Shown in pieces: positions 25,284 through 63,170 of a stretch of DNA of 64,000 nucleotides; the first letter of the stretch is position 1; each line of letters opens with the position of its first letter. The stretch covers positions 276,343-340,342 of the forward strand of contig KV918801.1 of NCBI GenBank assembly GCA_002049455.2. The letters run 5' to 3'. Both the position numbers and the translations under genes were made by a program. The notes under the pieces are model-generated. The model was not told the DNA's origin. It did no database searches and saw nothing but the letters and a program-made list of their open reading frames with translations. The stretch is from Porphyra umbilicalis (taxonomy: Eukaryota > Rhodophyta > Bangiophyceae > Bangiales > Bangiaceae).

Positions 25284-26195
25284 ATGGCGGCGGCGGGGGC
25301 GGCGGCGGGGCGGCGGCGGGGAGGCGGCGGCGGTACAAGGAGCGTGGCCTCTGCTGCCCATCGGCGCGTCTCCCCTCCTCAGCACCCCCAACCGCGACCC
25401 GCACACCCCGCCCACGCACATCCACACGCACTCGTATATCCACCCACTGGCGGCCGCCACCGGTGCAAGTACCCCCCCTCCTCCTCCACCTTGGCTTTCA
25501 AGCAGCGCCTTGTGGCCGCCGCCGCCGTTGCCCTGACCGCGTCGGCCACTATCGCGTCGGCCACCAACCTTCCAAACACGGCCGTCCGCACCGGCGTCGG
25601 CGCCAAGTGCAACGCGCGTGGCAAGTGCGACGCGGGCCTCGTCTATGAGCACAATCGGTGCGTCAAGGAGAACGTGCCCGCCGGCGACAAGTGCGGCGGG
25701 CCCGTCAAGTGCTACCACGACGCGTCCTGCGTCAAGGGCACCTGCCTCAAGTATGTGTGCGCGGGGACGCGCTGCGGCAAACACACAAAGAACCAGTGCT
25801 ATGGCGACGCCTCGTGCGTCAAGAGGACGTGCCTCACCTATGTGGCCGCGGGGCCGTGCTATGGGGAACACACAAACAACGAGTGCCATGGCGACGCATC
25901 GTGCGTCATGGGGACGTGCCTCGCGTATGTGACCGCGGGGACCCGCTGCGGGGAGCACACGGAGAACCAGTGCTATGGCGACGCGTCGTGCGTCAAGGGG
26001 ACGTGCCTCAAGTTTGTTGCCGCTGGGAAGCGCTGCGGGGTGCACACGGACAACCAGTGCTACGGCAACGCCAGCTGCGTCGGCGGCAAGTGCGCCACGT
26101 TTGTCGGCGTTGGAAAAAAGTGCGGCGCCAACCGCAACACGCAGTGCTTTACGGGTCTGGTGTGCGAGCACGGCAGGTGCCGCCGCTCGCACTAG
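25284..26195 (+). CDS. Secreted protein of tandem 29-residue four-Cys repeats
   Basis: A hydrophobic segment (residues about 76-96, rich in Ala/Val/Leu) is followed by a Cys-rich region to the C-terminus. The repeat has the pattern CG-x2-T-x-N-x-C-x-GDASC-x4-C, ending LKYVAAG. Its SC-V anchor codons fall at 25728, 25815, 25902, 25989 and 26076, an exact 87-bp period, with a divergent half unit at each end. One unit has PCYG where others have RCG, leaving its first Cys shifted. The pattern predicts an extracellular disulfide-rich rod, perhaps a wall or defence protein; I do not recognise a named family. The first in-frame ATG (25284) lies well upstream of the hydrophobic segment and the intervening residues are low-complexity, so a spliced 5' exon supplying a normal signal peptide is quite possible. 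It ends in TAG. Confidence 0.75.
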   Translation: MAAAGAAAGRRRGGGGGTRSVASAAHRRVSPPQHPQPRPAHPAHAHPHALVYPPTGGRHRCKYPPSSSTLAFKQRLVAAAAVALTASATIASATNLPNTAVRTGVGAKCNARGKCDAGLVYEHNRCVKENVPAGDKCGGPVKCYHDASCVKGTCLKYVCAGTRCGKHTKNQCYGDASCVKRTCLTYVAAGPCYGEHTNNECHGDASCVMGTCLAYVTAGTRCGEHTENQCYGDASCVKGTCLKFVAAGKRCGVHTDNQCYGNASCVGGKCATFVGVGKKCGANRNTQCFTGLVCEHGRCRRSH

Positions 26196-27735
26196 AGGCG
26201 CCTCGGCCGGCGGCAGGGAGCAAGGGGAGCGTAGAGTCGGACCCGACGTGGGGAAGGCGGTGATCGACGCCGCATCCGCCGCAACTGCAGACGGGGGGTG
26301 ACCCCGCGCCGGTACGCAACGGTAACTGGTGCGTGGCGCCCTTTGTGCGTGAGCGACGAGCATTGTTTTGGGTGTTTTTGTGGTCTGGTGGCACTGCGTG
26401 TGGTCGGCAGGCGGGCGCGTGCGTACCTCGCTTTCGGACACTTAGAGCGGTACCAACAACGTTCCGCATCCACAAAATATGGGCCCACGTGTCCAACGTG
26501 GCCCCACGTGGCGCTCTATGTGGAAAAACGCAGCCTGAGTGATCACCGACAACGTCAGAGAGCCGGATCTGTCCACAAAGGCACCAGAAACGATTTAGAA
26601 GATTGGGATAAGTCCAACCGGATAACAGGCGGGGGGTACGGAAGCGTTCGCGAATGCCGGCGCGTTCTCCACATAGAAGGCCGATATGCGGATCCCGAGC
26701 GCACGTTCGCGACTGTGTCGAGAAGTTTGACATGAATCTGAGTGCTGTCATGGACGGAACGAAGCCAAACGAAGCCAAACGACGCTCAATGATGACCGCG
26801 ATCGTGGCCACGTGTGGCGTCGTTTGATCGCACGGCGTGATTTGATCCGGCGCGGGGGCCAGCGAGAGGTGACTGAATGACCGGTCACGCGCAGTATGAC
26901 CAAGCCCAGGTCATCTATCATTTCGCGTGGGGCACGAATCTCGAACAGGTCGCTTTGTGCTGCCATGTGGCGGCTTCCTCGACCCCTGCCGAGTGTCTTC
27001 AACGGCCTCTATCTCGGTGGGTCACATTGAAAGCGTACGTTGCCTGACACCGCGTCTCGCGACGCCAAAAGAGAGACGTGGACGCACAAAACAGGTCGCA
27101 TGCGCTGTGGGCCGCGCACCTTCGGAGTGGACCTGATATGACTGCGTCACGGCCCTCTGAGGACCGGTTGTGCTCAGCACACTGGGCTGTAACCACGCAC
27201 GGATTATTTGCGGAGCCACGCCGCGCCACGCGTCATGTGGGCGTGCGATGCCGGGCCCCGCACTGTTGGCGGACCAGCCATCGGGTGCCTGGGGCCGGTG
27301 GTGATGCCTGCACCCCCACCAGCATGCCTGATTTGGGGGGGGGGGGCGGCAGCCGCAGCGTCTGGCGACTGTTTTTTATATGCCGTGCGCCGGGCCCGTC
27401 CGCATGACACGCACCGCAGCCGCCCACCGCCCCCCGCCCCCGCCCGCCGCCGCGCATTGCCGCCCACCGACCGACGTCGTTCCCACCGTCGTGCGCCACC
27501 GTCGTGCGCCACTGTCGTGCGCTATTGTCGTCACGCTCATCTTCTTTGCGGTAGCTCGACGCGCACCGCCGCGCACCGCCGCCCACCGCCGCTCACCGCT
27601 GCCCACTGCCACCCACCGACCAACGTCGTGCCCACCGTCGTGCGCCATCGTCGTGCGCCACCGTCGTGCGCCACCGTCGTGACACCCATCTTTGTCGCAG
27701 TAGCATTTGCTCGGCCAACATGTGGCCGACAGGCC
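26196..27735. other. intergenic; transposon 5' flank at the right
   Basis: No gene is supported. 26300-27200 has mixed composition with short frames. From about 27240 the DNA becomes GC-rich and enters the repeat tract that precedes the intact transposase. Confidence 0.5.
27455..27706. repeat. Duplicated tract of CACCGTCGTGCGC motifs upstream of the transposase
   Basis: A segment starting CCCACCGACC at about 27463 recurs at about 27612, a 149-bp period. Each copy holds several CACCGTCGTGCGC-like 15-bp units. Position just upstream of the transposase ATG (27736) suggests subterminal repeats that could bind the transposase or its SANT-like partner; that role is inference. Confidence 0.6.
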
Positions 27736-29184
27736 ATGGACGAGGCAGGTGAGGACGAGCTGGAGCTTGCGGCAGTTCTGGGCGCACGAGCTTGCTTTGG
27801 AGCGCACCGTGCACGGCTAGCCGTATGTGCGGGTCATGTGCGCAAGCGTGCGGGGGGCTCTCGACGCGGGCGCCGACCTCATCGGCAGCGTGATTTTGAC
27901 CTGGGTGCGTTTGCCATTCTGCGTGACTATTTCGGTGTAGACGGGCGGCCGCCTGTGTACGGCGAGGACGAGTTTGAGGACCGTTTCCGGATGCCGCGTC
28001 CAGTTTTCAACCGCTTGTTCCGTGCCATCCACGACCAGCCGTTCTGGAGGCGTAGTGTCAACGCTACCGGCCGCCCGCAGGCTCATGCCATCCAGAAGGT
28101 GGCGGCTGCTTTGCGAGTGCTGGGGTACGGGGAGTCGTTCGATCGCGCGGATGAGTACTGCCGCCTCTCCCGCTCTACCATTGACGACGCCACTCACCAC
28201 CTCACGGAGTTCATCATCTACAAGTGGGAGTCGACGTACCTTCGTCGCCCGACGGACGTGGAGCTGGAGCACATTCTGACGCGAAATGCGGCCCGTGGTA
28301 TGCCGGGCTGTATGGGCTCCATCGACTGCACACATTGGCAGTGGCACAAGTGCCCAAAGGCCCTTGGCGGGCAGTACCTGGACCGCAAAGGTAGGCGCTT
28401 TGTCGTTATTGAGACGGTATGTGATGAGGACCTGTATATCTGGCATTTGTTTGTTGGCTGTCCTGGGGCGTACAACGACATGAACGTGCTGGCATCGTCT
28501 CCGCTGATGCTTGACGTGAACGCGGGTGCTTGGCCACCAAGGAAGTACAAGTACACACTGAACGGCCGCTCTCGTCGCTTGCTCTTTTACGCGGCCGATG
28601 CGGGCTACCCTCGGTATGCTTTGTTTGCTCTCCCGCACCCGAAGCCTGACGGTCCCAAACTGCTGGTGTACAATCGCCTCCAGGAGGAGGTGCGCAAGGA
28701 TGCAGAACGTCTTTACGCGGTATGGTGGTCACGGTGGTTCATCATGAAGTATCCGGCCAGATACATGTCGGTTTTACGCCTGATCAAGACGGCCAAGGCA
28801 ACTGCCATCCTGCACAACATGGCCGTCGAGCACAAGCGGCATGGCTTCATTGCTGCAGTGCGCGGGAGCGCTGCCGCGGCCGACGGCGGCTCACGTACTG
28901 GCGACGGGCAACCAGCGGCCTTCACGAAGGATGCGGGGCCGCAACAAGATTGTGTGTGGGACGAGGCGGTGGCCGCCGCGACAACCAATGAGCCCGAGGC
29001 TGCAGACGACGGTCGAGGTCCTATCGTGGGGTCAGCGAGGTACATGCACATGGCCGAGGCCGAGGCCAAGAACACCGACCGTCACTTGTCGTTGCTCAAG
29101 GACTTGTCGGAGCACGTTTGGGCAGACCGCGGTAGACTGCTAGCGCCCTATGTACGCTTGCCGCTGACTGGCGCACACGAGTGA
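27736..29184 (+). CDS. PIF/Harbinger-type DDE transposase, intact
   Basis: ATG at 27736 gives a 482-residue protein; upstream the frame stays open but is only repeat-derived. Residues 1-50 are acidic then basic (RRGRRPHRQRDF). A predicted helical DNA-binding part follows (RMPRPVFNRLFRAI; RPQAHAIQKVAAALRVLGYG; SRSTIDDATHHLTEFI). The DDE_Tnp_4-type catalytic core has Asp197 in GSIDCTHW, Asp248 in GAYNDMNVL and Glu324 in RKDAERLY. A helix after the core (KTAKATAILHNMAVEH) matches the family's usual end, followed by an Ala/Gly-rich tail ending at TGA. Length is normal for Harbinger transposases. It would excise and insert the element in the nucleus together with the SANT-like partner. No lesion is visible, so it could be active or recently so. 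Confidence 0.93.
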   Translation: MDEAGEDELELAAVLGARACFGAHRARLAVCAGHVRKRAGGSRRGRRPHRQRDFDLGAFAILRDYFGVDGRPPVYGEDEFEDRFRMPRPVFNRLFRAIHDQPFWRRSVNATGRPQAHAIQKVAAALRVLGYGESFDRADEYCRLSRSTIDDATHHLTEFIIYKWESTYLRRPTDVELEHILTRNAARGMPGCMGSIDCTHWQWHKCPKALGGQYLDRKGRRFVVIETVCDEDLYIWHLFVGCPGAYNDMNVLASSPLMLDVNAGAWPPRKYKYTLNGRSRRLLFYAADAGYPRYALFALPHPKPDGPKLLVYNRLQEEVRKDAERLYAVWWSRWFIMKYPARYMSVLRLIKTAKATAILHNMAVEHKRHGFIAAVRGSAAAADGGSRTGDGQPAAFTKDAGPQQDCVWDEAVAAATTNEPEAADDGRGPIVGSARYMHMAEAEAKNTDRHLSLLKDLSEHVWADRGRLLAPYVRLPLTGAHE

Positions 29185-29879
29185 GGTTGCTGGGGGCTGA
29201 GGTGTCTATGACCACGCCGAGCTGTGAAGCAAAGGTTTTTTTTCCCGCTAGTCGGTTTTTTTTTCCCTTGGACGTGCTTGTTGTCCCTCATCGTCCAGTT
29301 CTCTGAGTGGGGGGGGTAGACTGCGAACAATGTGTGCCTCTCAAGCCCCTGGCTCACCTCTCTCCAGGCCTACGAGACGTCGGCAGGTGCTGTTCATGCC
29401 TCCCAGAGGCAGCTAGCCATGGTCGCTGGAACTCGGCGCGCAGGCAGAGCGTGTTCTGAAAATGTGAAACAGCTGTGCGCCAAAGGACTCTGAGACTCTG
29501 TACAAATGTGTTATTATTATTTTATATATAAATGATGTGATGCGAGTGGTGCCGCCTACCGCGAGTGGCGCCGCCTCCCGCCGCCGCTCTCGAAGCTAGC
29601 AAGATGCAACAGACAGCGCATGGAAGGGCGGCGTAGGTCTTGAGACACTGCCGTGGTGAGGAGAGAGCCAGACCCACACCCCCCTACCCCTCTTCCCGCA
29701 CCCTCTGCCAACGACACCGCGACACTGCGACAGCACGGAACCCGCCGCCCCCAAAGCCCCCACCGACGACACATGCCGACGCCCCAAACGCTGCGACCGA
29801 CCACACTCGCCGCCGTCGCCGAAGCCGCCGCCAAAACTGGCCGCCGCCGCCCTCAACGCCCAAACCGACAACGCACGCC
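29185..29879. other. 3' flank of the transposase
   Basis: Contains an AT-rich stretch (about 29505-29540, ATTATTATTTTATATATAAATG) that could include the transposase gene's polyadenylation region, then GC-rich DNA leading into the satellite. No gene seen. Confidence 0.4.
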
Positions 29880-31100
29880 GCCGCCCCAAACGCGACCACC
29901 GTCAGGGCCAGCCGCCTCCCCCAGCGCCGCCGCCGACAGCACTCGACCCCGCCGCCAACGCCGTCACATGCAACGGCTGCCGCCGCCCTCAACGCCCAAA
30001 CCGACAACGCACGCCGCCACCCCCAACGAGACCACCGTCAGGGACAGCCGCCGCCCTCAGCCCTCGCCGCCGCCGCCACCGCCGCCACCTGCAACGGCCG
30101 CCGCCGCCAACACCGCCACCTGGAACGGCCGCCGCCCCCCCCAAGGCTTCCACCGAGACCCCACGCCGCTGCCCCTAACACCACCACCTACAAGGCCAGC
30201 CGCCGCCCCCAGCGCCGCCGCCGACATCACTCGCCGCCGCCGCCACCGCCGCCACATGTAACGGCCGCCGCCGCCCTCAACGCCGAAAGAGAAAACGCAC
30301 GCCGCCGCCCGCCACCGCGACCACCGTCAGGGCCAGCCGCCGCCCCCAGCGCCGCCGCCGACAGCACTCGCCGCCGCCGCCACCGCCGCAACATGCAACG
30401 GCCGCCGTCGCCAAAAACGCCCTCACTGACGACGCCCGCCGCCACCTCCAACGCAACAACCGATAAGGCCAGCCGCCGCACCGAGCGCCGCCGCCGACAG
30501 CCCTCGCCGCCGCCGCCAACGCCGCCACCTGCAACGGCCGCCGACTCGCCCAATGTCCCCACCAAGAACTTACGCTGCCGCCCCCAACGCCACCACCGAC
30601 AATGCCAGCCGCCGCATTCAGCGCCGCCGCCGACAGCACTTGACGCCGCCGCCAACGCCGCCACCTGCAACGGCCGCCGCCCCCCCCAGGGCCCCACCGA
30701 AAGCGCACGCCGCGTCCCCAAACGCGACCACCGTCAGGGCCAGCCGCAACCCCCAGCGCCGCCGCCGACAGCACGCGCCGCCGCCGTCAACGTCGCCATC
30801 TGCAACGGCCGCCGCCCCCCCCAAGGCCCCGACCGAGAACGCACGCCGCCGCCCCCAACGCCACCATTGACAAGGCCAGCCGCCGCACCCAGCGCCCCCG
30901 CCGGCAGCCCTCGCCGCCGCCGCCAACGCCACCACCTGCAACGGCCGCCGTCGCCGCCAACGCCCTCACTGACAACGCACGCCGCCGCCCCCAGTGCCGC
31001 CACCGACGACGGACGCCACCTCCTCCAACGCTACTACCAGGGCCCCCAGCGCCGCCACCGACGACGGATGCCACCTCCTCCAACGCTGCCACCAGAGACG
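29880..31100. repeat. 136-bp GC-rich satellite
   Basis: An AGCGCCGCCGCCGACAGC anchor recurs at about 29923, 30211, 30348, 30484, 30620, 30755 and 30891 (steps of 135-137 bp, the first a double step). Because 136 is not a multiple of three, successive units are read in different frames, so the 588-codon plus-strand frame across it is an artefact of low stop-codon content. It separates the convergent transposase and partner ORFs. Confidence 0.8.
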
Positions 31101-31896
31101 AACGCTGGCAATCTCAGCACCACAGAAGACGCACGGTGGCAAGCTCAGCACCCCCACCAAGCAGGCCTGCCACCGCCCCCCGAACCGCCACCTGCAACGC
31201 TTAGTGTCATTGGGGGGGGGCAGGCGGAGAGGCAGGGATCAAGTGTTGTCGTGGGGCGAAGTAAGTGGGAGGGGGACGGGCAGCGACGCCACGCGGGAGA
31301 GGGGCGACAAAACCATGCGGCGCTGGCGCCGGTACGAGAGGAGGTGTGCAAAATGCGGGGATCCACTGCTTCTACATCCGTACTCTTCAAATATCCCGCA
31401 GTCTGAAGTTTTCCGCTCTCCAACTGCTACAGAAGTGTTCCAAATGGGCGTCGAGGACGCCGCCGAGGCCGCTTTCGGACGCACACGCAGCATTTGGAGT
31501 GCGAATTATTTCGGCGAAGTGCTGTCAATTTGGCAGTAGGTTCGTCTATTGATTTCCCTGTATTGAGAATCTGTAAACCAGAGTGGGCAGTGGCGAGTCT
31601 GTCGAGGGGAACAAGTCACAGAGGAAAAAACGGATTGTCTCTGCTGTGCATACATGGTATGTGCAGTACCGCACAATAGTACCACACAACCGTGATATCG
31701 AAGAGCACGGCACCACGAACAGCTACAGAGTTCTTCATCAATATGAGCTACGCAGAGCTCAAACATCAAAGCAGATAGCATACAACCAAAAAAAATAGAA
31801 AGCAAGGAAGAGAATCACCAGTGTATGCTGGCATCAGAGGGTCGGCAAGGCACTCGTCGTGTCGTTAGTCGCGGCCGTGAAGGCGACGGCGGTCGT
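31101..31896. other. satellite end and 3' flank of the partner ORF
   Basis: 31100-31480 is the degenerate end of the satellite. 31480-31896 has more balanced composition. No gene is seen. Confidence 0.4.
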
Positions 31897-33900
31897 CTAC
31901 GCGTCATCCACGTCATCGTGCTCGTCACCGTCTTCTCCATCGCTGGATGAACCCCAGTCCATAGTGTTCAGAACGCGCTGGTCGATATTGAGGCCGTTGG
32001 CGTGCGCTCTCTCCATGAATAGCCGCTGCTTGGAAACAATGGAGGAGCGGCCTCGATTAGAGGCCGTACGAAGAGACGGCGGCAGCGGCGGCCGGGAACT
32101 GAAAACGCCGGCGCGGCCGCCATGGCTGCGCCCACAAGGCTCTCCTCCCGTCGAGACTTGCTCGTGCTCACCGCTCGCGCCAACGCTCTCGTCCGCGGGC
32201 AGCCTTGTGTTCCCGTGGCCCGAGTCGCTGCTGCTCCCTTGAAATGCAGCAGCTGCTAGGGCCACAGCAGCATCCGCGGCGTCCTCAATAGAGGTGGACG
32301 GCACAGGCAGCGTCGAAGGCGGTGGCGGCGGTGGCGACACGATGTGGTCCTCCTCTTCGGCCTCCTCTTCGGCCGTCTCCTTGTCGGTGTGCGCATGACC
32401 ATGAGGGGCGGGTGACGCATCCGACTCCGTCTCCGTGACGGAGCCCGCCTCCTCCTCGTATATCTCAGACGTGGACCGCGAGCCGCGGCGCTCGGCTCGC
32501 GCACGGCCACCTCGGGCGCCACGAGCGAGACCTCTGCGGCCGCGTGTGCCTCCTCGGCGACCGCGGCCGCTCCAATCACGACCACGTCCACCCCCGCCTC
32601 GACCACCTCTACCTCGGCGCCCACGGCCGATGGCGGAAGCTGCAGCGGATGCCGCATCAATCTCTCGTTGCATGGCCGCCTCGTCATTTGCGTCCGGGGT
32701 GTTGGCGTTGTTGGCCACGGGGTGGCCATCAGGTTCCTCGCGCAGGCGGCGACTAGCCTCACGTGCCCACCAAGCGCGACCCTCCTCCGTGTTGGCAGCC
32801 ATGGGCGAAGACCAAAAAGCAACGGTGCTGCGCTCAGCTGCCGATCGCGCAATGGAGTTGAGCGCCGCCGTGTGCGCGACGGACTCGCGCTGAAGGGCGG
32901 CCTCAATGCGAGAGAACTCCTTGGCGGCCTTGGTTCCAATAGGCCGCTCTTGAAACGCACCCTGACGTCGCTGCTTCTTACTGCGGTCATACGTAGAGCT
33001 CTGAGGCTCGTCAAAGGGGTCGTCCTCAACGGTGTCCTCCTCTGCATCATCGTGCGCAACACGTCGCGGCCGCCTGAGCGCCTCCATCGTGGCGGCGCCG
33101 CTGAAGCGGTCCAGCTGCTTGAGAATGTTCCAGAGGCGAAGAGGCTGGTTGTCGAGCTTTGCTGCTACTTCCGGCTTAAAGCCCTCGTAGGGGCTCAAGC
33201 CGTTGAGCTTGGCCAGGGTGGCGTTGAACAGGTCCGCCATTGTCGGGTTGCCAGTAAGCCTGTAGTTCACGATCGCCATGTAGGAATTCTTAAACCGGTC
33301 GACCATAGGGAAGACGTTGTAGCTCAGCTCCTTGTGGATGGCAGAGGTAGAGCGGGAGCGGCGTCGCTCCACCCGCGGCATGTCATTCGGTAGTCGCGCG
33401 CGGAAGCGGCTGCAGATGTCCTCCTTGAAAGTCTCGAGGCGCTGGTCGATGCCAACCTCCGCATTGAGGGTCGCCTCCACGTACGCTGCGCAGAGAAACT
33501 CGCGCTCATCTGGAGTCCATGACACAACCCGGACGCCACGAAGACTACCAGGGGCCAGAGCATTGGTAGGGCGTTGGGGCGACAGCGATGGGCTTGGCCG
33601 CAGGGGAAGGATCTCATCGTCGCCCACCAACGACCCATCATTGGTCGCGTCATCACGAGGGGCAGGAGAACGGGTGGTACTGGTGGCGCCGGCAATGTTT
33701 TGGCCGCCTTGGCCTCCTGCAGGAGGAGAGGGCGGGGGAGTAAGGGTAGAACCGGCCATGTCTTGGCCGCCTTGATCTGGAACACAGAGCACAGCGGCAG
33801 CGCAGTCACGAGCCACCGCTACTGGCGTCTCGGCGAGGGAGGTCGAGGCGGCGGCGGGCGGCGGGGGGGCAGCGGTCCCAACTGGAGCGGCTCCCACCAC
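31897..33900 (-). CDS. SANT/Myb-like partner protein of PIF/Harbinger-type element
   Basis: The open frame has 667 codons, opening with GTG at 33900; its first ATG is at 33759, so translation may start there or be spliced from the upstream CPWA ORF, which it overlaps by 82 bp in another frame. Residues 1-120 are Pro/Ala-rich. The conserved domain is 127-266: SWTPDEREFLCAAYVE, then GIDQRLETF, RLTGNPTMADLFNA, LSPYEGF and LWNILKQLDRF. This is the trihelix/SANT-like type found in Harbinger ORF2 and NAM-associated proteins. Further on come a Gly/Arg-rich RGG-like tract and an Asp/Glu/Ser-rich C-terminus ending DGEDGDEHDDVDDA. It would recruit the transposase (27736-29184) to element ends in the nucleus. 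No break is seen within the domain. Confidence 0.8.
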   Translation of the reverse strand: MVGAAPVGTAAPPPPAAASTSLAETPVAVARDCAAAVLCVPDQGGQDMAGSTLTPPPSPPAGGQGGQNIAGATSTTRSPAPRDDATNDGSLVGDDEILPLRPSPSLSPQRPTNALAPGSLRGVRVVSWTPDEREFLCAAYVEATLNAEVGIDQRLETFKEDICSRFRARLPNDMPRVERRRSRSTSAIHKELSYNVFPMVDRFKNSYMAIVNYRLTGNPTMADLFNATLAKLNGLSPYEGFKPEVAAKLDNQPLRLWNILKQLDRFSGAATMEALRRPRRVAHDDAEEDTVEDDPFDEPQSSTYDRSKKQRRQGAFQERPIGTKAAKEFSRIEAALQRESVAHTAALNSIARSAAERSTVAFWSSPMAANTEEGRAWWAREASRRLREEPDGHPVANNANTPDANDEAAMQREIDAASAAASAIGRGRRGRGGRGGGGRGRDWSGRGRRGGTRGRRGLARGARGGRARAERRGSRSTSEIYEEEAGSVTETESDASPAPHGHAHTDKETAEEEAEEEDHIVSPPPPPPSTLPVPSTSIEDAADAAVALAAAAFQGSSSDSGHGNTRLPADESVGASGEHEQVSTGGEPCGRSHGGRAGVFSSRPPLPPSLRTASNRGRSSIVSKQRLFMERAHANGLNIDQRVLNTMDWGSSSDGEDGDEHDDVDDA

Positions 33901-34685
33901 TCAGGCGGCTGAGGCTTGTTGACGTCCACCCACCGCAATCCACGCACGCCGTTGGCGTTTGGCCACGTTTGCACTTGTATCCAACGAGGAGCGTTCCTCG
34001 CCTCCGCCGCCGCGCGCTCCTCTGCGAGCCGCCGGTCGTGCTGCTCCCAGGCCACGCTCACCACGTTGCCGTCCTCGTCCGGCGGCAGCTCGATGACAGG
34101 AGGCGACGCCCAGGGGCACGGGCACCACGGTGGACACGTCGGGTGGTGAGGCCCGACGGTGATGGAAAGACGGCAAACAAAACACAGACGGCGCTGAGCC
34201 CGACGCTCTGCGGTGCGGCCTAAGAAGCCAGGTTGGCTTCCAATCCAGCGCCAGCCCCAGCCCGGATGCGGCGAGGGCCGGCGCGCCCACGGGCACGGGC
34301 ACCGGTCCGGGCAGATTGAGACGTTGGAGCTCACGGACTGCGCGCGCTTGCACAGGGTGCAGATGCTTCGTGGGCCCCGTTGGAGCTGGGCCTTTGTGAT
34401 TGCTCGAGCAGGCGGGCCATGTGCCGGGCGAGGGGTGTAGGCAGGGGTGGCCTTGTCTGCAGTTGTAGTCGGCCCCTCAGTAGCCCCGGAGTCAGCAGGC
34501 GTGGACGGTGTGGCCGCGGGCTTCACAGGAGCACCGGACGTAGCCTCGGAGTCAGCAGGCGTGGACGGTGTGGCCGTGGGCTCCACAGGAGCACCGGACG
34601 GCTTGGCCGTGGAGTTGCCGGCCATCGTGGGCGTGGGGGATGATGAGGGGGCGGATGGTGCGGCTAGGGGCGCCGAATCCGCCAT
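33819..34685 (-). CDS. Protein with two CPWA cysteine modules, upstream of the SANT-like ORF
   Basis: ATG at 34685, 288 residues. Residues 1-80 are Ala/Pro/Thr-rich with a 20-residue tandem repeat (GAPVEPTATPSTPADSEATS-like, 31-50 and 51-70). Two modules follow with identical spacing, C-x2-C-x12-C-P-x2-C-x-C-P-W-A: Cys 109, 112, 125, 129, 131 and Cys 168, 171, 184, 188, 190. Five closely spaced Cys suggest metal binding. The rest has a charged helix (about 214-232) and a Trp/Pro-rich end (PEWWEPL). A single module of the same spacing occurs at 61911-61988, again upstream of a SANT-like ORF. The 82-bp overlap with the next ORF suggests a splice or frame change joining the two into one protein. 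I do not recognise the module from named families. Confidence 0.6.
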   Translation of the reverse strand: MADSAPLAAPSAPSSSPTPTMAGNSTAKPSGAPVEPTATPSTPADSEATSGAPVKPAATPSTPADSGATEGPTTTADKATPAYTPRPAHGPPARAITKAQLQRGPRSICTLCKRAQSVSSNVSICPDRCPCPWARRPSPHPGWGWRWIGSQPGFLGRTAERRAQRRLCFVCRLSITVGPHHPTCPPWCPCPWASPPVIELPPDEDGNVVSVAWEQHDRRLAEERAAAEARNAPRWIQVQTWPNANGVRGLRWVDVNKPQPPEWWEPLQLGPLPPRRPPPPRPPSPRRQ

Positions 34686-34937
34686 CGTGGGATGCCGCAG
34701 CGTCGGTCGCTACTTGCGTGCCGAGCTTCGTCCGCCGTCCGCGTCGTGCCCAGGTCGCAAAACGAGTCGCCGGTACAGCGCCTGCAGCAGTGCGCTCTAC
34801 AAAACGGGTCCCAACCAGAGGTGCATGCGCTCAGAAAACGCTCGTGCTGCGTCGCGAAGGCGAAGGCGACCACGGCACTGCGGCAACAGAAACAAGTGAC
34901 GCTGCGCGGGGCCCTCCGTACACTGACACCCTTCGCC

Positions 34938-35080
34938 CCTCATTTTTGGCCGGTTGATGGCCCTCAAAGCACCCTGTGTGCGGAGGCATGCTGCTAGCGG
35001 TGCGTGGCCCTCATTTTTGGCCTGCTGATGGCCCTCAAAGCAGCCCTCGTGCGGAGGCGTGCTGCTAGCGGTGCGTGGCC
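34938..35080. repeat. 71-bp tandem duplication
   Basis: The sequence beginning CCTCATTTTTGGCC at 34938 recurs at 35009 with a few substitutions; both copies end near CTGCTAGCGGTGCGTGGCC. Confidence 0.7.
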
Positions 35081-35469
35081 CGCGGTTATTGGGCGATGCG
35101 AAACCGCAGCCCGAAAGGCTCGTCGCGGGCCCCACGCGCGGGGCACAGAGAAGCGGCCACGCGGGCTGCCCTCGACAGCATGGATTGCGCTGAGGGGGGA
35201 CTGGTTTGCTGCCTCTTTCGCGCCCGGCGCTCGTGTCTGTCACGCAGGCAGCACGCGGCCGTCACACGGTCAAAAAAAGGCTCACCTGCTGCGGCCTTGG
35301 CGCCCATATGCATATGGAAGGGAGAAATCGGCCGGTTCGGGTGGTCAGCCGTCTGATATGAGGCCTCAACATGGAGCGTATTAGGCCTCAACAGAGAGCG
35401 CATGCGCGATTCATGGCCTTGGCTACCTGCATGATTCATGGCCCTTGCTTCACCTTGCTACACTAGGTA

Positions 35470-35916
35470 CAGGTGAGACACGAGGCAGGGGCGGCTGCCC
35501 ACGTATCCCGACGCTAGAACCTCGCCGAGCGGACACCAGCAATGTAAACATTCATGCACGTGCACAGCCTTGAGTGGATCTCCGAGCCTCTTTGCCTGGC
35601 TCTTGGTGGTCCCTCCCGGTCACGCTGGGGGACCGTTTGGCTGACACTGGGTGCCCTGCGTCACCAAGGGCTCAACGCCGCTGTCCCGCCCACAACGTAT
35701 TTGGGGCCACTGGGTCTCAGATCGAGTCGGTCCACCAAAACTCGGATTCGGCCACCGCCTGTGGTCCGGTCGTGGAGGCACACCACCCCACTTGATCCGA
35801 CTATTTTTGGATTGCGACGCGTGTTGCAACCGCATCACACGCCAGCCGAGATTTGTGATATTTCTTCTGATCTACCGAAATTGTATCCTATCACCTGATT
35901 CGTTGATTGCAAACCG
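35470..35916 (+). repeat. 447-bp direct repeat, copy 1
   Basis: Matches 39491-39937 without indels; the only difference I see is one A/G change near 35720. It starts CAGGTGAGACACGAGG and ends GATTGCAAACCG. An open frame (35554-35898) is identical in both copies, but I find no domain in it. The unit contains TG near its left and CA near its right end, like an LTR, but flanking target duplications are absent. Confidence 0.85.
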
Positions 35917-37733
35917 TGGAAAACACGGCAGCGCGGTGGGGCGTTTGCGGGGTCCTGCTGATTTCGTCCTGCTGACTTGGTCGCGTCTTGGCTTCAACAG
36001 CATCGCCCCGTCGGCGTTGCGGCCGAAGAAGCGCAGCTGCTGTCCGTGGCTCCCACTGCCACGCCACCGCCCGTATCGCGGGGCGGCAGCCCCTCCGCGT
36101 GTTGCAGCGCTTTCCCCGCCGCCCGAATTGCGGGGCGGCAGCCCTCCGCGTGCTGCGGCGCTCCCCCCCCCCCCCCGTCGCCTGTGAGACAGCGCACACA
36201 GGTCCCCCCCCCGCCAGCGGCGCCCTCGCGCCGCGCCAAGAGCGTGTGTGGCAAGCGGGAGTGGCCGCATGCGGCGCGGCCTGCCGCCGCCGCCGCCGCC
36301 GCCGCCGCTGCTGCCGCCGCCACAGTCGCCGCCGACACCGCAGCCACAGCCGCCACCGCTCGTCGCGCTGCCGCGAGGCGTTAACTCTACTTTGCCGCCC
36401 ATGCCACTGCCTTGCGCCCCCCTCCCCCCCCGCACTAAGCCCCCCCCCGAACCACGCGCTCCTTCTCCGCGCATCACGCGCTCCCGCCGCCAGCCCGCCA
36501 GCGGCACAACCACGCCGCGCCAACAGCGCGGGCGGCAAGCGACAATGGCCGAGTGCTGCGCGGCCTGCAGCCACCGCCCACAGCGGCCGCCACTGCGGCG
36601 ACAGCCTTCGCCGTCACCGGCGCCGCTGCCGCCCCTGCCACCGCCGCCGCCACTCGTCGCGCTACCGCATTGCGGTGCCTCTGCTGTGCCGCCGTGCCAC
36701 CAGTTTGCGCCCCCCCCCCCCCGCACCACGCTCTGCTTCTCCGCTCACCGCGCGCTCCCGCTCTCGCCGCCCGCCCGCCATCGGGACCACCGCGCCGCGC
36801 AAAATGCTTGCACGGGCACGATGCAACCACCAACTGCTGCGGTGCGCCCGGCCGTTACCGTGATCGCCACAGCGGCCACCCGCATGGCTAACGCGACGTG
36901 CCGCGCGGCGGTGGCCTCGAACTGGCGCCCTGGGACTGGCGCACCTGGGCGGCGGCGAAAGCAATGGCGCTGGCGCCTACAACTGGCGACGCGTCGTTTT
37001 GCCGGTGGCCGGCCACCTGGGCGCGCGGGCGGCAGCCACAGCGGCGGTGCTACCCGCCGCGCGCGTCGCCCTCCGCCACCGCGACGGGCAACCCTGTGGC
37101 CGGTCGTCACCTGCGCACGGGAAGGGCACCCAGGTGGCCACCACGTCTACAGGGCGGCCGCAACACCGCATGAAAGAAGGAATACAACGTAAACTAGATT
37201 GTTTATGGCGCCGTACACCGCCGCTTTCCTCCTCAGTGCCCACTCAACAAAAACGCAATGCAAAAAACAAACGTACAAGAGGGTTCGCGCCTGGGTCTCC
37301 GTACGAGGCCCACAAAGGGCGGTCGCGTTCCCCCCATCTCCCAGCAAGACAATGGTCGCGTTCCCCCCACCTCCCATAAAGACAATAAGAACACGTACGC
37401 GTCAGCCCGAGCTGGTGCCTGCCCGCCACCGCGACAAAACCAAACAACATGCAAGTAGCGAGAGGAACGCCAACCGTGGGCCTCGGTACGAGGCCTGGCG
37501 AGCGCGGCCCCTCCTCCCCCGCTGTCCTCCTCTCGCCTGACACACCAGGGCGGTCCACACATACCATGCGCTGCCGCGGCTCGCCCCGTCGGCGGTCAAC
37601 CCTCCCCACGTACCCCCATGCGCGCGCAAAAGAACTAGACGCTCGACACAAAGAGACGTCTGTCGGCCAAGTGCTGGCCGCCACAGCCGGCCCGGCCAGG
37701 GCCCTGCTTCTCCATGCGGTAGTCGCCCTGGTC
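35917..37733. other. Pro/Arg/Ala low-complexity block
   Basis: Very GC-rich (about 36020-37150), open on both strands, with runs of CCGCCGCC-type triplets. Translations are low-complexity and carry no domain. 37200-37730 has mixed composition. No supported gene. Confidence 0.45.
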
Positions 37734-38933
37734 CTAGTGCCGAAGTTGGCTCGCGTCCTGCTGCCCGCGATCACGTGCGTCCTCGGCCGTGCTCGCGGCC
37801 GTGCCAAGCTTGAGATTGTCCCGTGCGAGGGAGATGCCAACGAGAATGACGTCACTGTCCACACTGTCGTTCGCCGCCGCCGCCTCCAGCTCCGTACGAC
37901 CGGCCGCAGAGGCCGCTCCATCACGTCCCGTGACGTGGGTGGCGGTCGTGCCGGCCTCGGAAGGCAACATGGCCGTCGCCGTGGACGCCACAGCTGCGCG
38001 GACGAGGGTTTTCTGGTACTCCTTGTCAAGGGCCGACATCGCCTTATGGCATGCAGCCGCCCAGCGAACAGCCGTGCGGTAAGTCTTACCAGCAGAAGCG
38101 AGGTGCTTGTCGACTGCGGCAGTCTTGGTGGCGAGAAGGCGCATGACGGTGTAGTGCGGCGCCGACAGGACGCGGAGGTTGTCCATCTGCGTCTCAAACG
38201 CCGCCGCGCTCGTGCCAATGTCCTCAACGGCCTTCGCGGCCGCCTCGAGCTCGTCGGGCCTTGATGGCTGATGATCGGCCATGCTGCCCTGCGTCACGCA
38301 GGGGCCGGCGTCCCTGCAGGCCTCGTTCTAGGCCGCGTCGCCCTCCACCTTGACCTTCTTACCGCCCACATTCTCACCTGTCGGCAGGCCGCCGACGGCC
38401 TTGCGCTTGCGGCCATGGTCGGCCTGGTTCGAGGCCGCTTCAACAGGCAAGTTGGGAATGAAAATTGCGGGACCCTCGTGCACGGACAGCGCCTTGGTCA
38501 CCACGAACCCAGGACCACGTGAAGCGCACAGGCCGGCGTCGGCCTTGTTGATTGCGTTGCCCCCTCCGTCACCGGCAATGCGTGCCGCCGTCAGGCCGAC
38601 GCCAGCCTCGTCCCCACCACCGTCAGCGGCCGCGTGCCCGGCCGCTTGAGCGAGAACGTTGACCGCATCCTGCGCATACCTTGCCCCTCCTTCGAGTGCG
38701 ACTTGCGCGGCGGCCACAGCCGCCGCCGCAACAACCGCATCGTCATCGGCAGCGGCGTCTCGGCCGCCGGCCGAATCGTCTCCGGCGCGAGTGGGCGCCG
38801 CCGGCACCGGGCCCCCAGTGGAGGCCCCGTCGCCGTGCTCACGAACAGCGCGCTCGACTTTGGCCACGCGCGTGGCCACAATAGGGGTGCGCATCTGGCG
38901 GGCCTCGGCACGATCGCCTAAGGGCGACGACAT
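37734..38933 (-). pseudogene. Helical Ala-rich protein interrupted by one in-frame TAG
   Basis: A single minus-strand frame runs from ATG at 38933 to the stop at 37734 except for TAG at 38328-38330. The first 201 residues are Ala/Gly/Asp-rich with a basic stretch near the end (GRKRKAVGG, GGKKVKVE) that resembles a nuclear localisation signal. The second part (ATG at 38282 if translated separately) is a helix-rich segment with heptad-like spacing (ELEAAAKAVEDIG, ALDKEYQKTLVRAAV). I do not recognise the family. It lies between the two copies of the 447-bp direct repeat, so it may be carried by the duplicated or mobile unit. The TAG could be a nonsense mutation or separate two short ORFs. Confidence 0.45.
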
Positions 38934-39230
38934 GGCAATGACGAAGCGCGACGGGGTGGGGTGGGGTGGGGCAGAATGTCGCAGCAGGCACAGCGTGGAA
39001 GTGGGGTCAGGCGCGTCTGGGGCAACGGTGGATGGCGGGCGTTCAGGTCCTCGTGGGCGCCGAGCGGGGTGCTAAAATGCCTTCGAATCACCCCACCAGA
39101 CCCCTCTCGCACCCCCCACCGCTGTGCGTGCCTGGCTGCTCCTATCGCCTTCTGGGGCCTCGCGTCGCGTGTCTGTTCCACATCGACTCACGCAGCGTGA
39201 AAACAAGTCTATGGGCCCCCAAAGGACCGT
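38934..39230. other. upstream flank, no gene seen
   Basis: GC-rich flank 5' of the minus-strand gene; only short frames. Confidence 0.4.
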
Positions 39231-39438
39231 ACTCTGCGGCCTTTCTTCTCCAGCCAGAAAATACCCGGCCCGCGCGGCCCCCCACGTCAGCGAAGCAGAC
39301 AGAGCGGGGTTTGTGTGGTCAGCTGTCTGGCTATACTCTGCGGCCATTCTTCTCCAGAAAGTATACAACCTGGCTGCGCGGCCACCGGCGTCGGCAGGCA
39401 AAAAGAGATGGGTTTGAGTGGTCAACTGTCTGGTATTG
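39231..39438. repeat. 104-bp tandem duplication
   Basis: ACTCTGCGGCC at 39231 recurs at 39335, and the downstream sequence (GGTTTG, GTGGTCA, CTGTCTGG) follows in both copies with substitutions. A related piece precedes copy 1 of the 447-bp repeat near 35320-35360, so the flanks of the two copies are also related. Confidence 0.6.
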
Positions 39439-39490
39439 AGCCCACTCCAACGAGCACATGCGTGGGTCATGGTCCTTGCTACGCTACGTG

Positions 39491-39937
39491 CAGGTGAGAC
39501 ACGAGGCAGGGGCGGCTGCCCACGTATCCCGACGCTAGAACCTCGCCGAGCGGACACCAGCAATGTAAACATTCATGCACGTGCACAGCCTTGAGTGGAT
39601 CTCCGAGCCTCTTTGCCTGGCTCTTGGTGGTCCCTCCCGGTCACGCTGGGGGACCGTTTGGCTGACACTGGGTGCCCTGCGTCACCAAGGGCTCAACGCC
39701 GCTGTCCCGCCCACAACGTATTTGGGGCCACTGGGTCTCAGGTCGAGTCGGTCCACCAAAACTCGGATTCGGCCACCGCCTGTGGTCCGGTCGTGGAGGC
39801 ACACCACCCCACTTGATCCGACTATTTTTGGATTGCGACGCGTGTTGCAACCGCATCACACGCCAGCCGAGATTTGTGATATTTCTTCTGATCTACCGAA
39901 ATTGTATCCTATCACCTGATTCGTTGATTGCAAACCG
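39491..39937 (+). repeat. 447-bp direct repeat, copy 2
   Basis: Collinear with 35470-35916 at a constant offset of 4021 bp. Similarity continues weakly on both sides (ACGTGCAGG against GGTACAGG on the left; CCGCGGCAAAAACGG against CCGTGGAAAACACGG on the right) before fading. Confidence 0.85.
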
Positions 39938-41084
39938 CGGCAAAAACGGCCGCGCGGCAGTGCTTTCGTGGCCTTCGATTGACTCGGCCGAGTCGCACTG
40001 GAGACAACGTTTCCCCGCGAGGTCCAATTGCGACCGTTCCCTCGGGTTGTCATGACAGCTGGTGGGGCGTGGTCCAACACCGGCAACGTGAGGGCCACCT
40101 CACTCGGCCCGAGAACGGGCCCGCCCAGGACCTTTCTGCTATTATCCCAGTGTGATGGTGGACAGCAAGGCCCCGCAGACCTGTACTTCCAGGGACAGAA
40201 ACGGGCATCCTGGACGAGTCACCGTCAACTGCGGTGCACGTGCCGTGCCCTCAGTGGACATTCGTGTGACGTTCTCTGGCTCGTCCATTTCGTCACGGCT
40301 GGCCCCACAACGTAGGTGTCGCCGTCGCCTTCGGAAACGAGTCGACCCGAAGAAAACGGAAATCTGATCAGATGACGGCGCTTCGACCACTCTGAGGCAC
40401 GTGGTGACCTGAAACGTGTCTGTCTCATGACGGATGATCGCCGGAATGACTGCATATTCACGCTAGAATGGACATGTGAACCTGATCCGTGTCATCCAGT
40501 TAAGGACGATTGAAGGACGATCGGCCGCTCAAATGACGACGACTGAAGGGGGACACGCAGCGCCCTTCTCACGGTGATGCGAGATGTCTGGTTCCGTGAG
40601 TTCGGAAGGTTGCAACCACCAACGTCGCCTTCGCATTCCGCAAACCAGTTTATACAGTAGCCCCCGTTTTTCATCAAATACATTGGGTCTGCCAGATCCT
40701 TTGTGGAACCCTTTCGTAAAGAGCTCGCCGCGGCTCGACACCCAATCACAGGCGTACACGACGACATACGTGGCGCTCTTAATTTATGTGGAACTGACGC
40801 GATGCGGACGTTGTTGGTACCGCTCTTACACAAAGAAATTTCGGACGACTCCGCCGCAGCAGCGGGACACGACGATGGCCAGCCCCGACGGCGGGGCTCC
40901 AACCGTTGAGGCACACATCCGCAGATCCGAGCATGACTACCTCTCTGCCTCGCGTCCATTCCCGACCGCCGTGGTGCAGGCGACGGCCCCGAGCTGGGGG
41001 CGTCACGGGGTCGCTGGCAACCGCCCGAGAAGCTACAGCCGCCGTTGAGCACCGAGCCAGGCCCGCCACAGCGGCAGCGAGCTT
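39938..41084. other. intergenic, no supported gene
   Basis: Mixed composition with short frames on both strands; nothing recognisable before the inverted-repeat remnant at 41085. Confidence 0.45.
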
Positions 41085-46941: not shown

Positions 46942-47304
46942 GCCATGGAGTGTGGGCCGTCCTCCGCAGACGCGCGCCTGCCAGGCGGCCCGCCCGCCGG
47001 CTGCGGCAGTAGCTTGGCCCCGGCGGGGCGGGCCTGCCTCCTCAGCTCGGGCAGCTCGGCGTGTACATGTAGCCGCTGCCGAGATCGGTGAGGGCCCCTG
47101 GTCGTCGACTGCAGAGCGTCGCTTCCTGACGACTAAGCCCCCCACCCACTGCCCCGCGGATCGATCCACGGCGTGGGACGCGGCCGCCCAGGCGGCAAGT
47201 TGCTCACCCTGCTCGTTCCCGTGACGCTGCAGGCCACTCTCTCCTTCCCCTGCTTCCCGTCTTGGAAGGCGCACCTCCACGGCGGCGCTCCCATTCGCGC
47301 GGCC
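46942..47304. other. 5' flank of the Hint gene
   Basis: GC-rich sequence between the palindrome and the ATG at 47305. The Hint frame is open back to 47173 but without conserved residues. No promoter element is evident. Confidence 0.4.
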
Positions 47305-54147: not shown

Positions 54148-55661
54148 GGTTGCAACAGGTGGGGCGTGCAGAAAAAGACTGGTGCAGGAGGAAAAGAGAA
54201 GCGGCTGAGAAAGAGGGTGGCGGAAGAAGAGCTCACACAGACGTTCGTCAGCTACAACTGCCGCGTCCGTCGTAGCGCGAGAGGTGCGGAATGGCAAGTG
54301 TCGACGGAGCGTGACGTGCGCACGGGGACGGGCAGCGACACCGGCGGGTGCGCCGCCGTGCACCGTGGAGCATCGACTTGAGAGTCTTCGATGAAATTAT
54401 ACAAGAAATTTCAGTGGGCTGTCAGTATTTACGAATCCATCTCATGAAGTCACCAGAGTCCTGGTTGTGATCAGGCCTCACTTAGAGTATTTTAGAGAGG
54501 TATTTACTTGAGTAAAAAGTTTGGGTATGTGCTCGTACATACTCTCGTTGTTTTCTGTTTTGTGTTCGTTCAATATACACACTGTCATTCCCTAAAAGTG
54601 TATCTCACAATTTAAGACGGATAGAAAAATTATTGCTGAGGACTGAGGGCGGAGCCACCAACGTGCCGTTTGGGACACTCGAATGGTTAAATGAAAGTGC
54701 CACGTGAGCGCATCTGATTGGGTCCGCGACGGCGTTCGACGGACGAGCAAAGATCCGCAATGGAGTTAGGCAGAACGGGGGCTACTAACAGCGAAAGAGG
54801 AACACATTGGACGGATCATCGGTGAACATGCGAACAGGGTCGGTGAAAGACTGCCGGTCGCAATCCATTCGCTCTTGATTCCATAGTACGCCACATGTCG
54901 GAAAGAAGGCCGCCGGCTGCGATTCCGCCGCGATCGACGCGCAGACCGGCACCGATCGTGTGATTGAAGGGGACACGTTCGTAGTTGACATGGCCAATAT
55001 GGCCCGAAAACCCGGTCGTCGGCGCGATCGTCGTGCCACGACTGTGTCCACCACGTGCCAAGTCTGGCGTCCAAGAGGCTCTGGCGCAGTCTGGCACAAT
55101 CTGGCGCCTGACGGGGGTCCCTCCTGCGGCCCGAGGGCTCCAACGTTGAGGTGCGCGTGTGCTGGTGGTCCATGCCCGCGACGGGATGCCCGAGCGGGGG
55201 TGTTGCACCGCTGTGATTGAGGCCCAGTTCCACGCGAGAGAGGCCCCACGGCGACCCCCACAGGCACCAAAACGAGCCGTGGCAGTGCCTCGATGGTAGT
55301 CAAATGTCACCGGCAGACGGTATTGTTTTACTTCCCCTGGGAGGCACGCGTCAGCCGTCCAGGAACCGTGCACGCGGATGGTGCAGCGATTGACTGTTTT
55401 CTATTTGTGGTCAACGTGCACGTGGCGCCTGTCGGGGTGCTAGTCAGCTGAGGTTGAAGTCGGCATGACGCACGCACGTGCTGTCGGCGCCGGTCGGTGT
55501 AGGGGTGCTCCATCCGTTGTGGTCTGGCACCGATATGTCCAGGAGAGCTCCACTACCCACCCGCCTTTGTCGCCGCGCGCGTCTCCCCCCCCCCCCCACC
55601 TCCACCCCCTCCTCCGACGTCCACGCACACGCGGCGCCGCGTACGCGCCGGCGCACGGCGT
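54148..55661. other. 5' flank of eIF2-gamma and intergenic DNA
   Basis: 54148-54370 is the likely 5' leader and proximal promoter of eIF2-gamma on the minus strand. 54380-54640 is the most AT-rich stretch in this part of the window. 54760-55660 has short frames only; an upstream exon of the Ala-rich gene may lie near its right end. Confidence 0.45.
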
Positions 55662-60544: not shown

Positions 60545-61727
60545 GCGGCCTCACAGGTGGCGGCAGTGCGCCCCGGCACCGTCCTTGAGCGCACATCCCG
60601 GCCCGCGGCCGCGTCGCCGCGGCCGCGGCTGCGGCGCACACCGTCAGCACCGCGCCGCCCGCCAAGCTGGCAACGAAGAGCGCATGGGGCGCGGTGGCCA
60701 TGCGTGATCAGTCGGTCATCAGCGACCGTATTACTGCTGCGGCTCGTCGGGCCGACTGTCAGCCGCGAGCCGCGTGCGATGTGAAGCACACAAGTCGGCG
60801 GAGGTTTCACCGCGCACGCGGCTACGGATTCCCCTGCGTTCGGCTTGAGCCATGCGAGCGGTGCACCCCTGCGCTAGACGGCGGGCATCGGTGCCTTCGT
60901 GCGTGCGTGGCCTCGTGATGCCGACCGTGAGCCAACGGGCGATGCGTCTCAACAGTGTCCGTCGAAACACTGACGGAAGAGGTCGCATTGGTGAGCGCGC
61001 TTGAGAGTATAATTGATCGTGAGACAGCCGCGGCTCACCCAATCAGATTTTGCGTCGCCCAACAGAGTGACTCAGTCGTGCATTGCTTGACGGAGATCTG
61101 ACAATCATCTCGTGACAACCCGTGGGCCCGGACCCCTGATCACCTGTTCTATTCGTGATGACGATGGGGTGATTGAGCATCACGAGATATCTGGCCAGAT
61201 CCGGGCATGCGGCCAGCACGCTGAAACGACACGCGATTGGATGGAACGGGATTTTGGCATCCACAGACTAGGACCACGCTGACGTGCCCGTCGTGTGACG
61301 ACCGTGGTCCGCAGTGTATGCGACACCATTACGTCTGGTGTGACCCCTTGGGCCACCAACCTACATCACCACGGGACCGCCAAGGTGGGCCCGCCCGCTG
61401 GCGTGGGCCACAAGTCGAGAACGCCCAGGTGCGCCCCTCCGCGCGGTCGTGCACTGGGGGTCGGAGGCAGCAGAAACAGTGGCGGCCGCAGCGTAGCAGC
61501 CGCCTACCTGGTCCCCGCGCGTGGGTTCCAAGCGTCACCCATCCCCACGGCGGCCTGCGACGTCACGCCTGCGCGTGTCACGGCTGCGACCGTCTAAGCG
61601 GCGCTGGAGTGAGCTTTATTCGGTGACGAGCCTGTCTTTGTGAAGGATATGCGAACGGACGTGGGCGACCGCATCGTTCTCATTTCCATCGACCGACGGA
61701 CTCCCCCGCCACCACGTGCCCGTGCGC
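60545..61727. other. intergenic, no supported gene
   Basis: 60545-60840 is GC-rich; 60840-61620 has mixed composition and short frames. Nothing recognisable. Confidence 0.45.
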
Positions 61728-63170
61728 ATGTTGCCGCCACGGACCTCGCACGCGAGCCCGCGCACTGTTCCCCCCGCTCCACCCCGACATGGAGTGCCCC
61801 CCCCCCCCCCGCCGCCGCCGCCGCCTCTGCCGAGGCGTCCGCACTGGTGTTATGGGCCTCCGCTGCCCTATATCAGCAGGACGCAGCGCCGGCGCGGGCT
61901 GCGTCAGCTGTCTACCATGTGCCGACGGGCGCAGGACATCGGCCCGCAGCACCCCTTGTGCCCTCCCGAGTGTGTGTGTCCGTGGGCAGCGGGGAGGACT
62001 TGGCGGGCGCCGCGGCCGCGGGCACGACAGAGCCGCGAGCACGCGACTCACACGCCAGCCGGAGCGTCATCGCGGCCGCCGTCGCGGCGTCAGCAGCCGC
62101 TGCGGCCGCCCGCGCGGCCGCCGCAGCCGCTGTGGTCGCCGCCCGCTGCTCAACCTCACGCGGGCCACCGAGACTACCACAACGTGCCGCCACCCCAGCG
62201 GGAGCCTCAGCACCGGTGGGGTTCGCCGCGCGCGGCGCACGGCCCCCACTTTGCCCCTCCTCTGCGGTGGGGAGGCTCCAACCCGCCGTGTTATCTTCCT
62301 CGCCGTTCCCCTCCTCGCTGGCAGTCTGTCCACGCGGGACACGACCACCCTCGTGTGTCTCCTCCTCGCTGGGGTCCTCTTCAACCTGCCCACACTCCCC
62401 CCCGTGTATCTCCTCCTGGCTGGGGTCCTCCCCGACCGGCGTACGGCGCCCCCCGCCGGTCCCCTCCTCGCTGGAACCCGCGGTACGAGACACAAGCGCG
62501 ACAGGACGACAATTGTCGGCCGCCCGAGTGGCGGCCGCGGGAGCAGCGGCAGCACCCGCTGACGCCTCCGTCATCGCGGCCGCAGACGCCGCCGTGGATG
62601 CAGCCGCTGTACATGCGCGAGCGAACGCCGACGCCTCCAAGGACGCAAGCGGCGTCGGCGCGGCCGGGGACACCGCCGCCGACGGTGCAGGCGGCGGACG
62701 CGTCGCGGCCGCCGACCGCACCACCACGGCCGCCAACGCCACCGCCGCCCTCAGAGGCTGCCACGACGACGCCAGCAACACCATTGGCGCCGGTGCCCGG
62801 TACAAGGCGGCAGTCGTCTCCGACGCCGGCGACACATACGGCCGCTACACGGCCGCCGACGCCGTCGCCGCTTTCACCGCAGGCGGCCGCCACAAGGCGG
62901 CCGACTCCTTCACTAACGCCGTCCCAGTCACCGACGCCGACGGCGACGACCAGGACGGCGGTGGACGGGACCGATTCGTCCGAGTGGGACCTCTGGCCGC
63001 GCACGGGTTTTCCTTCGGCGCTGCTGCCAAGGCCGCCTCCAGTGGACCCGTCAGTATGGGCCGCGGAGGTGTCGGCCGAGTGGAGGAGACAGTTCCATCG
63101 GGACCCCCCGCCGGCCAGCGACGACAACGTCGGCCCGAAGCGGACGCCTACGTCGTCGCCCCGGGAGTGA
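61728..63170 (+). CDS. Pro-rich protein with one CPWA cysteine module
   Basis: From the ATG at 61728 the frame encodes 480 residues. Another frame (61640-63478) is open over the same DNA, but only this one contains the CPWA module seen in the protein at 33819-34685: Cys65-x12-Cys78-P-x2-Cys82-x-Cys84-PWA, with GPQHPLCPPE matching GPHHPTCPPW there. The first Cys of the module is Ser here (LSTMC against ICTLC). Downstream, residues about 175-260 hold five PPRW-type repeats (RSPPRW, RVSPPRWG, RVSPPGWG), and the remainder is Pro/Thr-rich. The frame ends 143 bp before the SANT-like frame opens, so a splice or frame change probably links the two. It is likely transposon-encoded, as at the other locus. 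Confidence 0.5.
   Translation: MLPPRTSHASPRTVPPAPPRHGVPPPPPPPPPPLPRRPHWCYGPPLPYISRTQRRRGLRQLSTMCRRAQDIGPQHPLCPPECVCPWAAGRTWRAPRPRARQSREHATHTPAGASSRPPSRRQQPLRPPARPPQPLWSPPAAQPHAGHRDYHNVPPPQREPQHRWGSPRAAHGPHFAPPLRWGGSNPPCYLPRRSPPRWQSVHAGHDHPRVSPPRWGPLQPAHTPPRVSPPGWGPPRPAYGAPRRSPPRWNPRYETQARQDDNCRPPEWRPREQRQHPLTPPSSRPQTPPWMQPLYMRERTPTPPRTQAASARPGTPPPTVQAADASRPPTAPPRPPTPPPPSEAATTTPATPLAPVPGTRRQSSPTPATHTAATRPPTPSPLSPQAAATRRPTPSLTPSQSPTPTATTRTAVDGTDSSEWDLWPRTGFPSALLPRPPPVDPSVWAAEVSAEWRRQFHRDPPPASDDNVGPKRTPTSSPRE

Follow-up and report, generated by a model that had tools for sequence, protein, structure and literature searches.

The cysteine-rich module ending in CPWA that occurs in this stretch of Porphyra umbilicalis DNA is probably the core of an accessory protein encoded by a large PIF/Harbinger transposon lineage of this alga. 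The module is carried by a mobile element, keeps a regular place beside a SANT-like open reading frame (ORF), diverges together with its partners and is maintained by selection on the protein. The DNA analysed, here called the window, makes up the final 64 kb of contig C41, and the genome scanned for comparison comprised 83.8 Mb in 665 contigs. Contig C665 of this genome encodes a Rubisco large subunit within a region of 34% GC; the best PDB matches of that protein are 8bdb, 25hn and 1bwv, and as 1bwv is an enzyme of a red alga, the host is probably an alga whose plastid is red-derived.

The CPWA Module

Three modules with a shared cysteine spacing had been proposed by a sequence-only reading of the window. 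The pattern [CS]-x2-C-x12-C-P-x2-C-x-C-P-W-A, run on the six-frame translation of the window, recovered all three at the places given for them, with no other full match in the 64 kb in any of the six frames (Table 1). The cysteine spacing held, but the unit as first described was too short, since conservation extends ahead of the first Cys into an arginine-rich stretch, [IL]-[ST]-K/R-x3-R-R-G-L-R. The conserved unit thus has about 45 residues, starts about 13 residues ahead of the first Cys, and consists of the arginine-rich stretch and five cysteines. In 15 of 15 modules, hand-chosen from the loci read, R14, R17, C20, C23, C36, C40, C42, P43 and W44 are invariant. The spacing and invariance of the five cysteines suggest that the module may bind zinc. 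A fold model built with three sequences had a mean pLDDT of 61, which is not a confident prediction.

A PIF/Harbinger Element at Locus 1

Modules A and B (locus 1) lie in a PIF/Harbinger element with a DDE transposase, terminal inverted repeats and a 3-bp TWA target site duplication. The inverted repeats are 27 bp long (26444-26470 and 40826-40801, 96%), and homology to other copies stops at the same ends in L067, L068 and L071. TWA is the Harbinger form of the 3-bp target duplication; matched duplications were found in all three copies with both ends read (TTA/TTA in the window, TAA/TAA in the C3 copy and TTA/TTA in the C127 copy). The transposase is encoded on the + strand, and the − strand carries the module ORF followed by the SANT-like ORF, to which the transposase is convergent.

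The same-strand SANT-like ORF reported just downstream of the module was found at locus 1. Its SANT label was given by eye and from context, and PF14303 (NAM-associated) was matched in three of four such ORFs, always below the gathering score (window ORF; L039, E = 0.0028; L040, E = 5.6e-4; none in L041). The proposed Harbinger context was borne out by transposase domains, inverted ends and TWA duplications at locus 1 and in other copies. A genome-wide PF04827 search returned 624 first-look candidates, and all of the best 150, which were scored, passed the cut-off, indicating that Harbinger elements are very abundant in this genome.

Several further features were observed in and around the element. 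A 409-bp direct repeat (35453-35861 and 39474-39882, 99% identical) lies inside it and is present in other copies too, and a minisatellite of ~136-bp units occupies 29742-31007, between the transposase and the SANT gene. The stretch 37081-38880 (−) is kept at 71-91% in comparison with L017, with no clear frame signal, and the ORF at 38331-39071, for which there is no Pfam match, has a basic tail resembling a nuclear signal (GRKRKAVGG..GGKKVKVEGD); together they might represent upstream exons or a further, fourth coding part. Words such as GGCCAAGACATGGCC, read as (D/G)GQ(D/N)MAG in the SANT frame, recur at 33770-33670 (−) and at the corresponding position of L009-L027; they could serve as start sites, form a peptide repeat or be a DNA-binding word. 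Adjoining the left end of the element is an array of 87-nt units (25718-26125), perhaps a Cys-rich coding repeat. Elsewhere the window contains a Hint-domain ORF at 47137-48543 (+; PF01079, E = 1.8e-22) and an eIF2 gamma-like gene at 52756-54396 (−; PF09173, E = 8.1e-33).

Table 1. Features of the two CPWA loci, in window coordinates.
Feature	Position	Strand	Evidence
PIF/Harbinger element, 14,381 bp, ends GAGCGGTACCAACAACG	26445..40825		Inverted repeats and target site duplication
Target site duplication TTA, left copy	26442..26444		Ends read
Target site duplication TTA, right copy	40826..40828		Ends read
Harbinger transposase open frame	27193..29181	+	PF04827 E=1.9e-49, PF13359 E=1.8e-9
SANT-like protein open frame, first Met ~33758	31900..33900	-	PF14303 E=1.8e-4, below gathering score
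Third ORF, 288 aa + stop, two CPWA modules	33819..34685	-	Six-frame match; dN/dS 0.13-0.34
Conserved C-terminal region of third ORF, ..WWEPxxLGPLPPRR	33873..34069	-	Alignment of five loci; single-sequence structure model
CPWA module A	34284..34361	-	Six-frame pattern match
CPWA module B	34107..34184	-	Six-frame pattern match
Locus 2 CPWA module, decayed, first Cys = Ser	61911..61988	+	Six-frame pattern match
Locus 2 single-module, proline-rich open frame	61644..63167	+	Pattern match; comparison with relatives
Locus 2 SANT-like sequence, 19-nt indel vs L041, cut by contig end	63257..64000	+	Sequence comparison

Genome-Wide Copies and Their Neighbours

A 29-base DNA pattern for C[PA]xxCxCPWA gave 126 exact hits genome-wide, 58 of them forward and 68 reverse, with at most two from any one element; its reversed control gave 0 in either direction, which excludes a chance origin of the module. 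Using tblastn with the best 150 candidates scored, the 85-aa two-module piece yielded 118 rows and the locus-2 module 147. Two architectures were found: group 1, including locus 1, has two modules per protein, and group 2, including locus 2, has a single module ahead of an extended proline-rich region. The two loci of the window thus belong to different subfamilies.

The regular link to SANT-like ORFs held across the genome, and the search for further copies next to them returned many. In at least 102 of the 130 module places listed, coordinates put a SANT-like match downstream on the same strand, at a distance of 812-2803 nt (median 1484.5 nt). Among the matches listed, none of the 130 has one within 4.5 kb that lies upstream on the module's strand or on the opposite strand. 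Of the 28 places with no SANT listed, window locus 2 and L041 do carry SANT-like sequence on reading, and L028 was read and no SANT was found. Conversely, among the matches listed, 109 of 211 SANT places have no CPWA module upstream.

In group 1, a same-strand SANT adjoins the module in 20 of 21 loci (the exception being L028) and a convergent transposase is present in 13 of 21. Of the eight loci in which no transposase was found, six end before its expected place, and in the other two (L013 and L015) the similarity to the window element breaks off before that point. The parts of the element diverge together: module and SANT distances are correlated with r = 0.85 (14 loci; r reached in 0 of 2000 permutations), and module and transposase distances with r = 0.87 (eight loci; 1 of 2000). 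For SANT against transposase, with four loci only, 282 of 2000 permutations reached the observed value.

Locus 2 is, judging from its sequence, a decayed group-2 copy at the contig end. Its SANT-like sequence has 27% identity to the locus-1 SANT (E = 1.5e-12) and 77% to L041; it stands downstream of the module on the same strand, as had been claimed, but is decayed. The Ser in place of the first Cys was likewise confirmed, but it is not shared by L030, a 97% relative, which has Cys. Comparison of locus 2 with L041 gave a small excess of third-position changes inside the module (6 of 11 in one scanned segment), a linker bias in changing phases and, in the SANT part, a clear SANT-frame bias. With so small an excess and a linker phase that shifts, the test says little on the locus-2 module.

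Other SANT groups have different upstream sequences. In L042 and L045, for which no CPWA is listed, the upstream ORF starts MTRKPD.ERDTERRRDQRRRHQERLAVLARCTCSCHxxGCPP, and in L043, also with none listed, it opens with MTRVKGANDTRRRRAQRQRNGRAATPPSPPCTCAGPC and has the basic-Cys stretch CTCAGPC. As these three loci carry a different basic-Cys stretch, the CPWA form is not a requirement of all Harbinger elements in this genome. The module of L044 is diverged and ends in CPCPWT.

Selection on the Third ORF

Purifying selection acts on the module frame: between the first module and the tail, a span of 177-181 codons, dN/dS was 0.13-0.34 for the 10 pairs of five loci (the window copy, L019, L020, L024 and L027). 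Third-position bias of the module frame extends to the stop, or to ~15 codons short of it in the window copy, in the two pairs compared (window/L017 and L020/L023). The claim of selection on the protein was thereby upheld. Past the module stop, ~500 nt of L020/L023 are without frame bias at an identity of 0.39-0.63, and in window/L017, where identity is 0.42-0.73, changes lean weakly towards the SANT frame. Once the SANT domain begins, changes in both pairs fall at third positions of the SANT frame, the switch being read from phase.

The product has an Ala/Pro/Thr-rich N-terminus, followed by the modules and a tail that is predicted to form a helix and two strands (pLDDT ~80 in a single-sequence model with an overall mean of 51.5). 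In group 1, the tail ends in a stop two residues after ..WWEPxxLGPLPPRR in L017, L020 and L023 and 12 residues after it in the window copy; the variants LGPLPLPRRH (L024) and LGRLPLPRDK (L027) are each followed by the stop. The tail of L024, LPPRW...G...YWVN.N...WWEP, resembles by eye the WW-domain consensus. This assignment was rejected, as neither Pfam nor the PDB profile gave a WW match and the Trp spacing is larger than in that consensus.

Separate Protein or Exon of the SANT Gene

The reading frames of the window's subfamily point to a module protein that is most likely made on its own, as a third product of the element, and not as an extension of the SANT protein. The module frame stops ~60 nt before the first Met of the SANT frame, which is a different frame, and an own SANT-frame Met was found in five of the six group-1 copies giving a result. 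The conserved tail up to the stop together with this Met favours two proteins, perhaps from one message.

The sequence-only reading had suggested that the module may be an extension of the transposon's DNA-binding subunit. On this view it would be an N-terminal exon of the SANT protein in all subfamilies, with an intron removing the stop. As a general rule this is possible, although we consider it unlikely. It agrees with the absence or remoteness of the SANT-frame Met in some copies: there is none in 394 open codons of L039 nor in 144 codons of L025 (group 1), and in L040 and L038 the nearest one upstream lies at a distance of 149 and 284 codons, respectively. In L038-L040 the module frame extends to the SANT domain and, with no near SANT-frame Met, an exon join is likelier in that group. 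In L058/L060, five of six differing codons just upstream of the first SANT-frame Met are, by eye, silent in the SANT frame, across the stop of the other frame; this constraint ahead of the Met favours a splice or an upstream start, and C/T-rich tracts ending in CAG were seen by eye ahead of the SANT domain in the same pair. The weak SANT-frame lean of window/L017 soon past the module stop points the same way. Against an exon in every subfamily are the tail conserved up to the stop in diverged subfamilies of the window's group, the own Met of group 1, the ~500 nt of L020/L023 with no frame bias, and the failure of an inspection by eye to show a conserved donor/acceptor pair. With frame and Met patterns that differ between groups, the SANT extension is the less likely reading at locus 1 and plausible elsewhere (L038-L040 and L058/L060), and the choice between separate protein and exon may itself differ between subfamilies. 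A single 1258-aa open frame does join module and SANT in L037 (C442), whose close relatives have separate frames; comparison with L038 and L039 shows a frame change in proline-rich repeats, so the joined frame is probably private to that copy.

That the two ORFs are genes with separate promoters and not parts of one transcript has a rather low probability. Group 1, where 290-660 nt separate the conserved parts, would have room for it, but the stop-to-Met distance of ~20-100 nt in other groups appears too short for a usual promoter.

Transposons capture host genes, and the module could in principle be such a captured fragment with no role in the element. We regard this as improbable given the same place and orientation in at least 102 places, the selection and the co-divergence; moreover, no free-standing host copy was recognised among the places read, which cover a minority of the 28 with no SANT listed. 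An origin as a by-product of GC-rich low-complexity DNA, which the low-complexity flanks and the unstable frame signals in parts of the proline-rich linker might suggest, is refuted for the module itself by the 126 pattern hits against none in the control and by the dN/dS values.

Relation to Known Families and Systems

The description of the module as new was consistent with the searches made, as scans of Pfam, NCBIfam, the PDB and viral and prokaryote contigs turned up no described family. The third ORF of the window matched no Pfam family, and the 15 modules gave only weak Pfam matches, to Dickkopf_N (one member, E = 0.061) and WEF-hand (one member, E = 0.27). NCBIfam returned nothing for two ORFs of the window, the best hit of a PDB profile search with the module had E = 1.6, and no relative of the module was confirmed in the viral and prokaryote contigs.

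According to the parts available of two reports (PMC9179366, PMC9710019), two ORFs are the norm for PIF/Harbinger elements, both proteins are needed for transposition of Harbinger, and its Myb-like protein interacts with the transposase and binds subterminal motifs. The algal element has in common with the two-ORF elements described there a Plant_tran / DDE_Tnp_4 transposase, inverted repeats, a 3-bp duplication and a second protein that is putatively SANT-like; it differs from them in its length of 14.4 kb and in a third coding part bearing the basic-Cys CPWA module. Harbinger-like elements can carry a different partner protein, as in ISL2EU, the second ORF of which is a YqaJ exonuclease (PMC9179366, available part). 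Unlike ISL2EU, the algal element keeps its SANT-like partner, and no Pfam family matches its extra protein. No description of a third ORF in Harbinger was recognised in the literature searched, Repbase and subscription papers lying outside its scope.

Proposed Role of the Module Protein

Our preferred reading, a transposon-encoded accessory protein with the CPWA module as its core, would have the element encode a DDE transposase on one strand and two further parts on the opposite strand, first the module protein and then the SANT-like one. For the window's subfamily this implies a separate product of 288 residues, in which the Ala/Pro/Thr-rich N-terminus leads into a pair of basic-Cys modules and the chain closes with a C-terminal helix-hairpin tail. 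Elsewhere, in subfamilies with a single module, that module and a long proline-rich linker would probably be spliced onto the SANT exon. The five cysteines could fold each module around zinc, the arginine-rich stretch could contact DNA or RNA, and the module protein might help the SANT-like protein and the transposase to assemble at the element ends or to enter the nucleus.

More tentatively, these elements could form a Harbinger lineage with an obligatory third component. It would be a new class of small zinc module, arginine-rich and ending in CPxxCxCPWA, that acts as a DNA-end or assembly factor beside the SANT protein, its basic-Cys part being remodelled between subfamilies and shifting between a protein of its own and the SANT exon.

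Autonomous Harbinger is described, in the available parts of the two reports, as a two-protein system (PMC9179366, PMC9710019), and a third component under selection would change the study of its assembly and nuclear entry. The lineage also offers a small, defined cysteine module, unmatched in any library searched, that is available to express and test.
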